DNA from: Alphaproteobacteria bacterium
GTDB taxonomy: Bacteria > Pseudomonadota > Alphaproteobacteria > Micavibrionales > Micavibrionaceae
Assembly: GCA_018000295.1 (NCBI GenBank)
Contig: JAGNKE010000015.1
Coordinates: 1-64,000 of the forward strand
Direction of reading: 5' to 3'
Length of the DNA: 64,000 bases
Positions 34,244-39,797 of the stretch are shown here, one piece after another (position 1 is the stretch's first letter; each line of letters opens with the position of its first letter). The position numbers and the translations under genes were made by a program. The notes beneath the pieces are model-generated. The model did no database searches, was not told where the DNA came from, and worked only from the letters and a program-made list of their open reading frames with translations.

Positions 34244-35728
34244 CTAAGCGATATACTTCTGCTTGATCCTTTGCCCCCGGTCGGCAAAAGGTCCGGTTTC
34301 AAAGAGATGAGTCTCCACAACAAGGCGGTCAGCCGGATAAACCTTCGAAAGTTCCCGGAATTCCTGATTGACAACCTTCAAAGCCTCAAAAATGAAAGGG
34401 CCGGCGTTAAACCTGTCTGCATCCTCTTGGGCCACTCCCTCCTTAAGCTCAAGACTTAAACGCAGATACGAGTTGGCCTTCTCGTCTTCGAAAACAGACA
34501 TCTGGAAGGAATGAAAAAGACTATAGAGTTCTTTATGGCCGTGAAGAACCGTGTCCATATCCGAAATCGTAATATTGACACCAAGAAAAAGCACAGTCTG
34601 ATCTCCCCGCCCATAGACATAGAGCAAAGGAAAATACCCCTGGGGCTCTTCGATCCGGTCCTCCAGCCCTAGACTCTTCAGCCGCTCAAAGACATCCTCG
34701 ACGGATAACACGCCTCCAACATCGCGCAAATTATATCTGATCTTGGGCGCCAGCGCACTCAGACGCGTAACGGTAAAGATAAGCTCCCCCTCGGAAGACC
34801 TTTCAATGTAATAATCAAGGGGATTGCACTGAAAGATCATCGGTACCGTCCGCTTTCCAAACAAAGACTCGCACAGGCCGGGTTGTTCGAAGCAAAGCCG
34901 CCGGAGTTTTTTGCTGAAAGCTGTCTCGACGGCCATATTGATATCCAGATCCGATGCGCCGTAGGACGAAATCATGGTTCTGAACGTCCCTGAAAGGTAA
35001 TCCTCCAGCCCTTTGGACAGAGACTCCCCTCCGGTGATTAACTGAAGATTGTAATCCTTCAGGTTGAGCGTTATCGTATCCACAAACAGCTTTATAAAGG
35101 GCGGATAACCGAGGATAAGATAATTGTAATGAGGTCCAAAAGTTTTGAGCGTATTCTCAAGCTTTTTTAAATCCGATCCCAACGATTTGAGCAGAGCCAC
35201 ATCGGAAAACGACATCGAAACATTCATGCCCGTCGCCCACGGCCCCATGACAAAACAGTTGATGATGAAAAGCTTCTGGCCAGGATAGGTTCGCTTCAGG
35301 CTCATTTGCAAAAGATGCCTGATCAGGCGCCGGTCGCTTGGCCCCCGCACCCAGTTCGTAGGCACACCGCCCGACCCCGAAGATTCGTCGATCACCACGC
35401 CGCGGACGGGCAATTGCCCGTAATGACAGCGCTGCTCGGCAGTATAGGCTTTAACGTAAACCTCTTTATCTGTTGCGGGGATCGTCGAAAAATCTGCGGC
35501 AGAATCCGCGCCGATAAAGTGTCTGTGCTCAAGAAAATCTTTGTAAGCCGGACAATGTTTTGAGGCTTTGAGATAAGCCAGATAGGCCAGCCGCTTCGCC
35601 AGCCGCCCATGATATCTTTGCGCCGCTTTCCGGCTGAGGAGCCAGAAAAACATCAGGTTAAAGACCCTGATCTCACGGGCACGGCAGAACACAAAAAACA
35701 AAGGATAATAGATAAAACGGTCAATCAT
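34244..35728 (-). CDS. PaaK/CapK-like adenylate-forming enzyme
   Basis: The product is 494 aa. It resembles the phenylacetate-CoA ligase / CapK branch of adenylate-forming enzymes: a P-loop-like S-S-G-S-G-G-V-P-T-N near residue 117, L-I-T-G-G-E-S-L near residue 232, S-Y-G-A-S-D-L near residue 252, and a Y-N-L-R-D-V-G motif near residue 335 that carries the Asp expected to bind ribose. The N-terminal 60 residues are hydrophobic/basic. The C-terminal lid (G-R-G-D-Q-T near residue 380) is present. It would activate a carboxylic acid with ATP. It overlaps the nitroreductase gene by eight bases. Substrate unknown; no carrier protein nearby. Confidence 0.75.
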   Translation of the reverse strand: MIDRFIYYPLFFVFCRAREIRVFNLMFFWLLSRKAAQRYHGRLAKRLAYLAYLKASKHCPAYKDFLEHRHFIGADSAADFSTIPATDKEVYVKAYTAEQRCHYGQLPVRGVVIDESSGSGGVPTNWVRGPSDRRLIRHLLQMSLKRTYPGQKLFIINCFVMGPWATGMNVSMSFSDVALLKSLGSDLKKLENTLKTFGPHYNYLILGYPPFIKLFVDTITLNLKDYNLQLITGGESLSKGLEDYLSGTFRTMISSYGASDLDINMAVETAFSKKLRRLCFEQPGLCESLFGKRTVPMIFQCNPLDYYIERSSEGELIFTVTRLSALAPKIRYNLRDVGGVLSVEDVFERLKSLGLEDRIEEPQGYFPLLYVYGRGDQTVLFLGVNITISDMDTVLHGHKELYSLFHSFQMSVFEDEKANSYLRLSLELKEGVAQEDADRFNAGPFIFEALKVVNQEFRELSKVYPADRLVVETHLFETGPFADRGQRIKQKYIA

Positions 35729-36704
35729 TGAGAATAACCTCGCGGATAGATAACCTCAGACTTTCAGGCGGAGGATCGCAGTACCCCAGCCTGAAGATGA
35801 TCCAGATATCCTGACTCCGTAGAAGGCCGCTCATCTTGGCGTTCGCTACAGGATTAGTGACAAGATTGCCGAACGGCAGGAGGTAAAGATCCTCCCGCGC
35901 CATCTCAAGCCAAAACCGCATGAAGGGCGCCCCGGCGGCTATCGCATCCCTTGCGTCCCAGAAAGGACCGGAAAGCCAGGCCATCATTTCGGTATGGCCC
36001 AATTTTTGCCGATAATAACGGGAAAGAACAGATTGGAAGACCGGAGCCCGCAGCAAAGCATGAAATTTGGTCAACCCTTTCAACTCGAAGCCGCTCATAT
36101 TCATGCAGCGGAAATCAAGCCCATCCCGCTTCTGTCGGGATTCATCCTCCGAAAAGCGAAGATACTCCAGAAGCTCTTGATAATACGCCTCGTCATTCAG
36201 ATCGGAGAAGAGCGCCTCGATGTTCGCGCACATAAGGCTTTCGATCGTCTCCCACTCCGTGGTAAATCCCAGAGATTGTCCAGCCCCGTCAAAAAAAGCC
36301 TTGAAACGCTCAATCGCCTCCGCAGGAACAGGCTTCCTCAACGATCCGGCCCGGGACGTTCGGCGCTTCAGGAACAACGAGTCCTCGTAAGCGCCCACAA
36401 CAGAGGGATCGCTGACAAGCCGGAGTTCTGCATAAGGAATAACAGCGGCGTCAGAAAAGCCAGAGAAGACAAGCGTAATATCCACCCGGTGCTGTCGGTT
36501 GGCCGCCAGCAGACAGATAGACTCCGTAAACATGGCCATCGACAGCAGAACGAAACTCCCCGTGTCGTCCACGATCGGCAAAGTTCGGCCTGTATCCAGA
36601 TAAACCGTAGACCGGTTTTCATCACGGATCACGACCTTCCAAGGCTGCACATTATGCGGCGAAGGCGTACGAGCGGCCAGAGAGAGGATGTCATCCCAAA
36701 GCAT
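35721..36704 (-). CDS. Nitroreductase-family protein, Acg-like
   Basis: About 327 aa. It begins with A-R-T-P-S-P-H-N-V-Q-P-W-K-V, the FMN-binding start of nitroreductases, and has the length and duplicated layout of Acg/Rv2032-type proteins, in which part of the fold is modified. The C-terminus has G-N-L-V-T-N-P-V-A-N and I-F-R-L-G-Y-C-D-P-P, also typical. ATG 36704 is used; GTG 36716 directly abuts a perfect palindrome and lacks a binding site. It is the first gene of a two-gene unit with the adenylating enzyme. Acg-type proteins sequester flavin or reduce unknown substrates. Confidence 0.8.
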   Translation of the reverse strand: MLWDDILSLAARTPSPHNVQPWKVVIRDENRSTVYLDTGRTLPIVDDTGSFVLLSMAMFTESICLLAANRQHRVDITLVFSGFSDAAVIPYAELRLVSDPSVVGAYEDSLFLKRRTSRAGSLRKPVPAEAIERFKAFFDGAGQSLGFTTEWETIESLMCANIEALFSDLNDEAYYQELLEYLRFSEDESRQKRDGLDFRCMNMSGFELKGLTKFHALLRAPVFQSVLSRYYRQKLGHTEMMAWLSGPFWDARDAIAAGAPFMRFWLEMAREDLYLLPFGNLVTNPVANAKMSGLLRSQDIWIIFRLGYCDPPPESLRLSIREVILND

Positions 36705-36716
36705 GATGGATCTCAC

Positions 36717-36954: not shown

Positions 36955-37485
36955 ATGATGGAATCGGCTCCTTCGATAGAAGACTCGATAGAAAATATGC
37001 GTTTCTGGCAATACTCTTTGACTGTGTTCGCGTTTCTGCTTGTTCTGGCCGGCTGTTCCTCGACCTCCGAGAGCGCCGGCGCCTATGGAAAATATTACAA
37101 GGTCGCCAAACCCATCCAGTGCGTCCCCTACGCCCGCAAGGTCTCTGGAATCAAGATGCGCGGCAACGCCCACACCTGGTGGGATCAGGCGCCGAAATAC
37201 GATTACACGAGGGGTAAGCAACCCGAGCGCGGCGCGGTTCTCGTCCTCCGCAACACCGGAAAGCTGAAATACGGCCATCTGGCGGTCGTCAACCGCGTGG
37301 TGAATAGCCGGGAAATCGACATCACCCATAGCAACTGGGGCAGCGATAAAAGCTCCCGCAGCCGGATCTGGAAATCCATGCGCGTGAAGGACGTCTCGCC
37401 CAAGAACGATTGGTCGCTCCTGCGCTTCTGGAACGGCAAAAGCTTCGGCGCCCCCTACGCGGCGTATGGGTTTATTTATAAATAG
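36955..37485 (+). CDS. CHAP-domain lipoprotein (putative peptidoglycan amidase)
   Basis: The product is up to 176 aa. A lipoprotein signal (F-A-F-L-L-V-L-A-G-C-S) is followed by a CHAP domain: catalytic Cys in Q-C-V-P-Y-A-R, His in Y-G-H-L-A-V-V and Asn in H-S-N-W-G. NlpC/P60-like CHAP enzymes cleave peptide bonds in cell-wall peptides. An internal ATG at 36997 would start the signal peptide directly and may be the true start; the longer start is given because it is the first ATG of the frame. The lipoprotein probably sits in the periplasm or outer membrane. Confidence 0.82.
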   Translation: MMESAPSIEDSIENMRFWQYSLTVFAFLLVLAGCSSTSESAGAYGKYYKVAKPIQCVPYARKVSGIKMRGNAHTWWDQAPKYDYTRGKQPERGAVLVLRNTGKLKYGHLAVVNRVVNSREIDITHSNWGSDKSSRSRIWKSMRVKDVSPKNDWSLLRFWNGKSFGAPYAAYGFIYK

Positions 37486-37671
37486 CCGCCCGCGCCCGCT
37501 CTAAACATCCCTCGCCCCACGCAGAATTTCTCAGCCTCTTCAAGCTCAGCATGAAGAGCATTAGCGGCAAACCCTAACCCATGGAAGCTGCTCAGAAAAC
37601 GTTTGAAAAAAAGCAGCAAGATATTTGAAGGTAAAGGGCAGAGATTGAACTTCTGGCCTCTATATCCTTAA

Positions 37672-37848
37672 TTAACGACAGTCTGTCCAAATCCAAGAAC
37701 AGCCATGTTGAGTGCATATGCACTGAGGCTCTCCATAACACCCCAATGGTCTTAATGGCTTAAGCCCGCATCCAAGATTTGCTGAGGCCGACTCTGGCAG
37801 GGCGAAAATAAATAAGGCAAACAATGATAGAAACATGATTTTTTTCAT
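37672..37848 (-). CDS. Small secreted cysteine-rich protein (58 aa)
   Basis: A short gene on the minus strand. The ATG at 37848 has AAAGGA about eight bases upstream, and translation gives 58 residues. Residues 1-24 form a clean Sec signal peptide (M-K-K-I, hydrophobic core L-S-L-F-A-L-F-I-F-A-L, cleavage after S-A-S-A). The mature part of about 34 residues has six Cys, in C-G-L-K-P-L-R-P-L-G-C, then C-I-C, then C-S-W and a final D-C-R. Even Cys number and a signal peptide point to a disulfide-stabilised periplasmic or secreted peptide. The family resembles small C-G-x-K-P-x-x-P-x-G-C proteins seen in proteobacteria, from memory only. It lies between CHAP and DUF3800 genes. Confidence 0.72.
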   Translation of the reverse strand: MKKIMFLSLFALFIFALPESASANLGCGLKPLRPLGCYGEPQCICTQHGCSWIWTDCR

Positions 37849-37888
37849 AACTTATCCTTTCGGTAAAATCGTGGAGTGTAATAATCAC

Positions 37889-38665
37889 CTACAAAGTACT
37901 ATGCAGCATATGATCAAGGATAGATAAAAAATCTTGCTCTTTCGGATACATAACTAGACTCGGAATTTCCCTTTTTACTTTCCAAGGAAATCTAAGATTT
38001 TCCAATTCTTCATGGCCTTCATTCATCCATCTTCTTACCCAATACGCGTAAAGATCAGCAGCTTGCAGGGGTAAGACCAACTTGTCATTCTCGAATAACG
38101 GCCTGCCCCCCATTATTTCCCTTATGTAATTCGAATCGTCATTCATTAACAAGTCCCAAACTTTATTTATGGAAGAGCTTTCTGTTTTTTCGTCGAAAAT
38201 AAAATCAACAGGTTCAAAAATGGATAGTTCTTTTTTGTGATGATAAAAATAAGTGAGAAGCAACTTGAATGAGAAAATATATGGATTTTTTATGTCATTT
38301 ACATTCGAGAGACCGAAATAGCTTAAGGCAGCAGTAAAGTCGCTTTTCTTAAAACAAATAGAAATTGAGGCAGAAACATTACTTTCTATTCTTTGATAAA
38401 ACAAATAAGCCTTTTCTCTTCTTATCTGTGAGCACGCCATTTCTGACATTTTGAAGTACGGCATTGCAGGGCCGTATGCAGGTGACTTCATATCTAGCAG
38501 CGTCTTCCATTCTTGCGAAAAAGCCCTCCAATTAACAACAGGGGCCAAATAACCAGCTAAGCAAAACACCCCGCCACTATCATCGTCTTCACTCTCATCT
38601 ATATAAGCCTGTAGAACCAAAAAAAATTTTCCCCATTTTTTAAAGCCTGATACAAGGCCTATCAT
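37889..38665 (-). CDS. DUF3800 domain protein
   Basis: About 258 aa. It has the DUF3800 start A-Y-I-D-E-S-E-D-D near residue 20 and the end block L-Q-A-A-D-L-Y-A-Y-W-V-R-R-W near residue 210, with D-F-I-F-D-E-K near residue 165: three acidic clusters characteristic of this RNase H-like/nuclease-like family of unknown function. The start is uncertain, since the family usually begins a few residues before A-Y-I-D-E-S; ATG 38665 is used, and 26 more in-frame codons precede it. The gene is much AT-richer than its neighbours and probably acquired. DUF3800 proteins are common on mobile DNA. Confidence 0.75.
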   Translation of the reverse strand: MIGLVSGFKKWGKFFLVLQAYIDESEDDDSGGVFCLAGYLAPVVNWRAFSQEWKTLLDMKSPAYGPAMPYFKMSEMACSQIRREKAYLFYQRIESNVSASISICFKKSDFTAALSYFGLSNVNDIKNPYIFSFKLLLTYFYHHKKELSIFEPVDFIFDEKTESSSINKVWDLLMNDDSNYIREIMGGRPLFENDKLVLPLQAADLYAYWVRRWMNEGHEELENLRFPWKVKREIPSLVMYPKEQDFLSILDHMLHSTL

Positions 38666-38813
38666 CTCACTAACAACACTAACCCTCAGCAACCTTCCGG
38701 CAAACGATAAAGAACTGAGGGTGGTCACGTCAACACCGCGCAACCCATGACCTCCAATATAACCCTGACCGCCCGCAATCCCGCGTGACTTCCCCCGCCC
38801 CTTGTTCTAAAAG

Positions 38814-39797
38814 ATGGGAATGTCCGCCGCGCCGCCAAACACACCGCCCCCCAAAACCTGCTGGGTTCTCACCGAGGGCCACGCGGGCATGGAGGGGCAG
38901 TGTCTCGGCCTCGCCGAAAATCTCGGCCTCACCCCGCAAATCAAGCGTGTCAGCCCCAAAGCCCCCTGGATCTGGCTGCCCGCCCGTCTCTGGCCCAACC
39001 CGCTGGGCATGGCCGCGCCCGAAACGCCTCTGACGCCGCCCTGGCCGGACATCCTGATCTCTTGCGGCCGCCGCAGCGCCGCCGCAGCGGCAGCGATCAA
39101 ACGCCAGAGCGGCAAGAAAACAGTGGCCATCCATCTGCAGCGCCCTCCCCTCCCCCCGCAAAGCTTCGATGCCGTCATCGTCCCCGAACATGACAATTAC
39201 AGCGGCCCAAACGTGATGACCATGCGCGGCTCCCTGCACCGCCTGACCGATGAAAAGCTCGAACAGGCCCGCGCCGCCTTCGCCCCCCACTTCGCCGCTC
39301 TCGGAAACCCGAAAATCGGCGTTCTCGTCGGCGGCTCCAACAAGCGGCAGGATTTCACACCGGCCCTCGCCCGCGATTTCGCAGGCAAATTGCACACGGC
39401 GCAGCAAGCCCTCCCCGGCGCCAGCCTCCTCCTCACCCCCTCGCGCCGCACGGGTAAGGAAAACGAGGCCATCCTGCGCGAGGCTCTCTCCGGCACGCAC
39501 AATTTCATCTGGGACGGGACGGGCGAAAACCCCTATTTCGGCATCATGGCGCTGGCCGATCTTCTGGTCGTGACCGGCGATTCTGTAAACATGGCCTCCG
39601 AAGCCTGCTTCACCGGCAAACCCGTCTACATCTTTAACTTGCCGGGCGGCAGCAAACGCTTGCAAAGCTTTACATCAAAGCTGATCGCCGAGGGCTTCGC
39701 CCGCCCCTTCGAAGGCGCTCTGGAACCCTTCGCCCCGCCCCGCCTGGATGAGATGGCGGCGGTGGTAAAAATTCTCAAGACAGAATACGGCTTATAG
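38814..39797 (+). CDS. ELM1/GtrOC1 family protein
   Basis: The product is 327 aa. Matches the mitochondrial-fission ELM1 / DUF1022 family: W-V-L-T-E-G-H-A-G-M-E-G-Q near residue 18, V-P-E-H-D near residue 123, L-V-G-G-S-N-K near residue 170, T-P-S-R-R-T-G near residue 203 and V-T-G-D-S-V-N-M-A-S-E-A near residue 255. The two Rossmann-like halves resemble GT-B glycosyltransferases, and bacterial members are near lipopolysaccharide or heptosyltransferase genes. Here it stands alone with respect to glycan genes. Function unproven. Confidence 0.85.
   Translation: MGMSAAPPNTPPPKTCWVLTEGHAGMEGQCLGLAENLGLTPQIKRVSPKAPWIWLPARLWPNPLGMAAPETPLTPPWPDILISCGRRSAAAAAAIKRQSGKKTVAIHLQRPPLPPQSFDAVIVPEHDNYSGPNVMTMRGSLHRLTDEKLEQARAAFAPHFAALGNPKIGVLVGGSNKRQDFTPALARDFAGKLHTAQQALPGASLLLTPSRRTGKENEAILREALSGTHNFIWDGTGENPYFGIMALADLLVVTGDSVNMASEACFTGKPVYIFNLPGGSKRLQSFTSKLIAEGFARPFEGALEPFAPPRLDEMAAVVKILKTEYGL

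Follow-up and report, generated by a model that had tools for sequence, protein, structure and literature searches.

A six-cysteine family of small, predicted exported proteins with phage neighbourhoods, and its chromosomal copy in a Micavibrio-related alphaproteobacterium

Background

The functional parallels for an exclusion role of the protein family described here are T4 Spackle, Llp and Rtp45, all small phage proteins that act in the periplasm to prevent further infection. Spackle is a phage-encoded, exported, disulfide-bearing periplasmic protein of superinfection exclusion that inhibits the gp5 tail lysozyme, and consists of a 75-residue alpha-helical bundle with one disulfide (PMC7677548). 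Llp of phage T5 and Rtp45 of phage Rtp are superinfection-exclusion lipoproteins that bind outer-membrane receptors from the inside; Rtp45 (~6 kDa) contains a disulfide, and its beta-stranded hairpin reaches into LptD (PMC12685063).

The proteins analysed here are a new, previously undescribed family of a known broad kind, the phage-borne small envelope proteins. Like Llp and Rtp45, they are small, phage-encoded and predicted to be periplasmic; unlike those lipoproteins, they have no lipobox, contain six cysteines and bear no detectable sequence relation to them. The contrast with Spackle lies in their length of ~35 residues, in models that show a hairpin rather than a helical bundle, and again in the six cysteines. 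Membership in the Spackle or Llp/Rtp45 groups was ruled out on these grounds (no lipobox, no helical bundle, no sequence match). Gene finders overlook small secreted proteins, and so do family libraries. If the present one serves as an exclusion protein or an inhibitor in the periplasm, it provides a new six-cysteine scaffold for a class with few known examples, and its small size would permit direct synthesis and binding tests.

Results and discussion

A 58-codon gene for a predicted exported protein

The window, by which we mean the whole 64,000-nucleotide stretch of DNA that was analysed, carries a complete open reading frame of 58 codons at 37672..37848, for which an earlier note had given no strand. 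ORF translation places it on the minus strand, with ATG at 37848 and stop codon at 37674-37672, the plus strand being full of stops across the same interval, and homologues support it. The encoded protein reads MKKIMFLSLFALFIFALPESASA-NLGCGLKPLRPLGCYGEPQCICTQHGCSWIWTDCR. Its first part (37780..37848, minus strand) is a putative Sec signal peptide, clear by eye as the earlier note had said, with a predicted signal peptidase I cleavage site after ASA; its second part (37675..37779, minus strand), delimited by alignments and an AlphaFold2 model, is a mature domain of ~35 residues, N24-R58, with six cysteines (C27, C37, C43, C45, C50 and C57) and a proline loop from C27 to C37. There is no lipobox at C27, which is preceded by N-L-G. 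The ribosome-binding site AAAGGA that had been pointed out is present (37855..37860, minus strand), although it stands 6 nt ahead of the ATG rather than 8. We consider it almost certain that this is a real gene encoding a secreted, disulfide-held protein.

Members and sequence pattern of the family

The family comprises 22 distinct members, the window protein among them; 17 come from viral contigs and the other 5 from cellular assemblies. They were gathered by several routes. A first look at 143 related genomes yielded two true relatives, each with all six cysteines: L004, on a contig of Micavibrio sp. UBA1672, and L005, in an Alphaproteobacteria MAG, which belong to one other genus of the same family as the window. 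The other, weak matches of that first look (L006-L022, L026-L028, L030 and L047) were spurious where inspected. The motif CG#xP#PP#GC, sought as DNA, gave further members on IMG/VR viral contigs, and looser patterns brought the total to 22 distinct sequences; pattern matches that on translation proved to be without the full cysteine pattern (e.g., L032, L040, L049-L051, L054-L056 and L066-L074) were discarded. The same motif was used to scan a cellular collection of 257 billion bases, yet most members are viral: the true members in that genome collection are only L004, L005, one that lies near a primase gene on a Geobacteraceae MAG contig, and one on a Rickettsiales MAG contig (L057) beside an integrase. 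A profile of 19 members found the family in 3 of 142 genomes of the order and in no other among 385 genomes across the class. Searches by tblastn of GenBank phages and plasmids returned no relative of the six-cysteine protein, and thus no phage of known host was found to carry the gene.

All members share six cysteines in the arrangement C-G-x-x-P-x-x-P-x-G-C ... C-x-C ... C-x-(W/Y/F) ... C, and the window protein conforms to it, with its cysteines in order and its loop bearing G2, P5, P8 and G10. In the 19-member alignment, the invariant residues (window numbering) are C27, G28, P31, P34, G36, C37, C43, C45, C50 and C57, and an aromatic residue lies between C50 and C57 throughout. The viral-contig member L082 has the same cysteine spacing as the window protein and is 53% identical to it in the mature part. 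An N-terminal signal peptide can be recognized by eye in the window protein and most others, the start codons of some phage members being uncertain; no aligned member has a lipobox before the first cysteine. The earlier note had named the lack of any homologue with conserved cysteine spacing as what would speak against the gene; 21 further distinct sequences with all six cysteines answer that point. Its suggestion of a metal-binding peptide is unlikely, as the conserved residues include proline, glycine and tryptophan besides cysteine, and export of the protein is predicted. The protein and its region are unmatched in Pfam, NCBIfam, PHROGs, PADLOC, PDB and Rfam; the first four hold no entry for a family that nevertheless combines clear conservation, a compact testable structure and phage association.

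Purifying selection

A Ka/Ks ratio below one had been proposed as a check, and was found in the closest chromosomal pair. Over 38 mature codons, L004 and L005 differ by 8 changes at first, 2 at second and 12 at third codon positions, giving dN 0.11, dS 1.01 and dN/dS ~0.11 (NG86); purifying selection is measured here on related pairs, the window copy having no close orthologue. Pairs of phage members have the same excess of third-position changes, with dS saturated in several. The dominance of third-position changes and the low dN/dS indicate a protein-coding family under purifying selection.

Predicted structure

AlphaFold2, run on the mature alignment, confidently predicts a two-stranded hairpin (mature residues 19-23 and 26-30) with a mean pLDDT of 88.9; when a phage member was placed first in the alignment, the same layout was obtained at a mean pLDDT of 88.0. 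A pTM of ~0.5 is normal for a protein of this size. Foldseek searches of PDB and BFVD, together with VIA-align, gave no match with E<=0.001, a miss that at 35 residues is weak evidence, and known disulfide-rich inhibitor or toxin folds gave no sequence-profile or fold match.

One viral contig encodes a four-cysteine variant, CGIKPIVPIGC...CIDGQWRC (L114:861-1064), between a NinG-like gene and terminase-type genes. This small exported or membrane-anchored protein, encoded upstream of the terminase-type genes, shares the loop CGIKPIVPIGC, but ends in C-IDGQWR-C and apparently lacks C4 and C5 together, whereas the family has six cysteines. That one variant and the position of the two residues in the predicted hairpin suggest that C4 pairs with C5 across the hairpin turn.

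Phage neighbourhoods

What the earlier note missed is the mainly phage-borne nature of the family. Scanning of the genes that flank members with PHROGs identified as neighbours a terminase large subunit (L033, L042 and L082), a terminase small subunit (L037 and L082), an endolysin (L031), a tail fibre (L034), replication or primosomal proteins (L063), a protein of an RNA-binding/DNA metabolism family together with a PAPS reductase (L076), and a repressor-type regulator (L082). In no fewer than ten viral members (L031, L033, L034, L039, L042, L045, L065, L112, L115 and L119), the gene is by itself on its strand and is flanked by late genes that run on the other; such a lone position between phage genes of unrelated function is moron-like. 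The gene is not always an isolated moron, as in L075/076, L082, L043 and L035 it shares its strand with its neighbours, some of which are early or replication genes. The deviant base composition by which morons are recognized was not found either: in most cases, the GC content of the phage copy equals that of its phage, so that the association with phages is not obviously recent. The six-cysteine gene is probably a phage-linked accessory gene.

In six phage contigs, a gene for a membrane protein of ~300 residues adjoins the six-cysteine gene in convergent orientation, near a terminase or terminase-like gene (L033:6274-7203, L062:8183-9199, L042:1439-2356, L045:4323-5369, L119:2816-3724 and L112:62-949). 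The likeness among these membrane proteins was judged by eye, and the two that were compared with PHROGs had no match; they are possible functional partners of the six-cysteine protein. Another secreted neighbour of the gene (L041:9715-10179, also in L035) matches LptE weakly and below threshold (Pfam E=0.009); since LptDE serves as a phage receptor, this match is of interest.

An insertion in the window against an empty site

The window gene lies in an AT-rich insertion (37486..38813; GC 0.41 versus 0.53 for the window), which thus differs in composition from its host, unlike most of the phage copies. The insertion is flanked on the left by a gene for a CHAP-domain lipoprotein (36955..37485, plus strand; lipobox LAGC; CHAP E=9e-15) and on the right by an ELM1-domain (PF06258) gene (38814..39797, plus strand), which are respectively 74% and 75% identical in the same-genus genome G001. 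The two flanking genes are ~1.33 kb apart in the window and ~80 bp apart in G001, which has the empty site. Directly upstream of the six-cysteine gene, on the same strand and across a 40-nt gap, is a DUF3800 gene (PF12686, E=3.9e-12; 37889..38743, minus strand; start codon uncertain), and both genes are absent from both same-genus genomes, G001 and G002. The neighbours are those that the earlier note had described, and its view of the DUF3800 gene as acquired holds; however, the same insertion also carries the small gene. DUF3800 was rejected as a conserved partner: it adjoins no other member tested, and the pairing in the window looks incidental. Elsewhere in the window, a 494-residue minus-strand ORF without a Pfam match (34247-35728) is adjoined by a nitroreductase-like gene (35724-36716, weak match only).

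Proposed role and alternatives

The window gene may be a chromosomal copy of a phage-borne, moron-like accessory gene, delivered into a Micavibrio-related alphaproteobacterium, together with the DUF3800 gene, on the ~1.3 kb AT-rich insertion. By what is generally known of Sec export and periplasmic oxidation, its product would be exported by Sec, lose its signal peptide, and fold in the periplasm into a mini-domain of ~35 residues with three disulfides. The rigid proline loop (C-G-#-x-P-#-x-P-#-G-C) and the two-stranded hairpin would form a binding surface, and an envelope component or incoming phage protein bound there would be blocked, much as small periplasmic superinfection-exclusion proteins block theirs. 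We assign a probability of roughly 0.4 to the reading that this accessory gene came from a phage and encodes a disulfide-locked mini-protein with a binding role in the periplasm, with superinfection exclusion or envelope protection as the most likely function; that the predicted exported protein has an envelope-binding or exclusion role is, taken by itself, an equally tentative proposal. The general proposition that phage-encoded, disulfide-locked mini-proteins guard the periplasm against competing phages by means of a rigid proline loop, and that bacteria have captured them on small chromosomal insertions, is more doubtful.

The binding surface could instead serve to inhibit an envelope enzyme, either a protease or a peptidoglycan hydrolase, protecting the infected cell or timing lysis. 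This is unlikely, as is the specific version in which C-G-#-x-P-#-x-P-#-G-C is an inserting loop of the Bowman-Birk kind that arose independently. Inhibitors of the Bowman-Birk type have a short, disulfide-closed, proline-rich loop, as does the six-cysteine family, in which the loop is the most conserved part and has one exposed variable position (K/R/A/P/M) ahead of an invariant proline; however, loop length and cysteine pattern differ, proline would be an uncommon residue for the presumed P1' site, and Pfam, PDB and fold searches linked the protein to no inhibitor family. An endolysin adjoins the L031 member and the CHAP gene flanks the insertion in the window, but the latter is a native flank, present in G001 without the small gene.

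The direction of transfer could also have been the reverse, the protein being a cellular envelope protein, house-keeping or predation-related in Micavibrio-like bacteria, that phages acquired from their hosts. In L004 and L005 the gene occupies the same place in the chromosome, with a MerR-type gene on one side, TsaE on the other and no phage gene adjoining, and these ordinary chromosomal neighbours, in two species of another genus and with the purifying selection noted above, make a cellular role possible. It is nevertheless improbable, given the restriction to 3 of 142 genomes of the order, the absence from G001 and G002, and the 17 of 22 members on viral contigs; moreover, two other species of the L004/L005 genus gave no family match, and in them the neighbours of the site beyond MerR were not found within 1.5 kb.

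Still less can be said for a secreted toxin or bacteriocin with DUF3800 as its partner gene. The protein is small, secreted and rich in cysteine, and DUF3800 lies directly upstream on the same strand; however, DUF3800 is near no other tested member, other DUF3800 homologues lack the small gene in their vicinity, there is no immunity or export gene, the Sec signal is a standard one, and one paper ties DUF3800 to nucleic-acid processing (PMC10910872). Nothing found here supports the toxin that the earlier note had suggested, and we regard this reading as very unlikely. An outer-membrane spanin (Rz1-like) or other lysis protein would likewise be short, proline-containing and secreted, and the gene is often near terminase or lysis-side genes, but the lack of a lipobox in every aligned member, the lack of any overlapping Rz-like gene, and the usual placement on the strand opposite to the late operon make this highly improbable. 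A chance ORF, as might be proposed for 58 codons whose family is in no library, is already refuted by conservation, with 21 homologues of invariant cysteines and a dN/dS of ~0.11 in a related pair.
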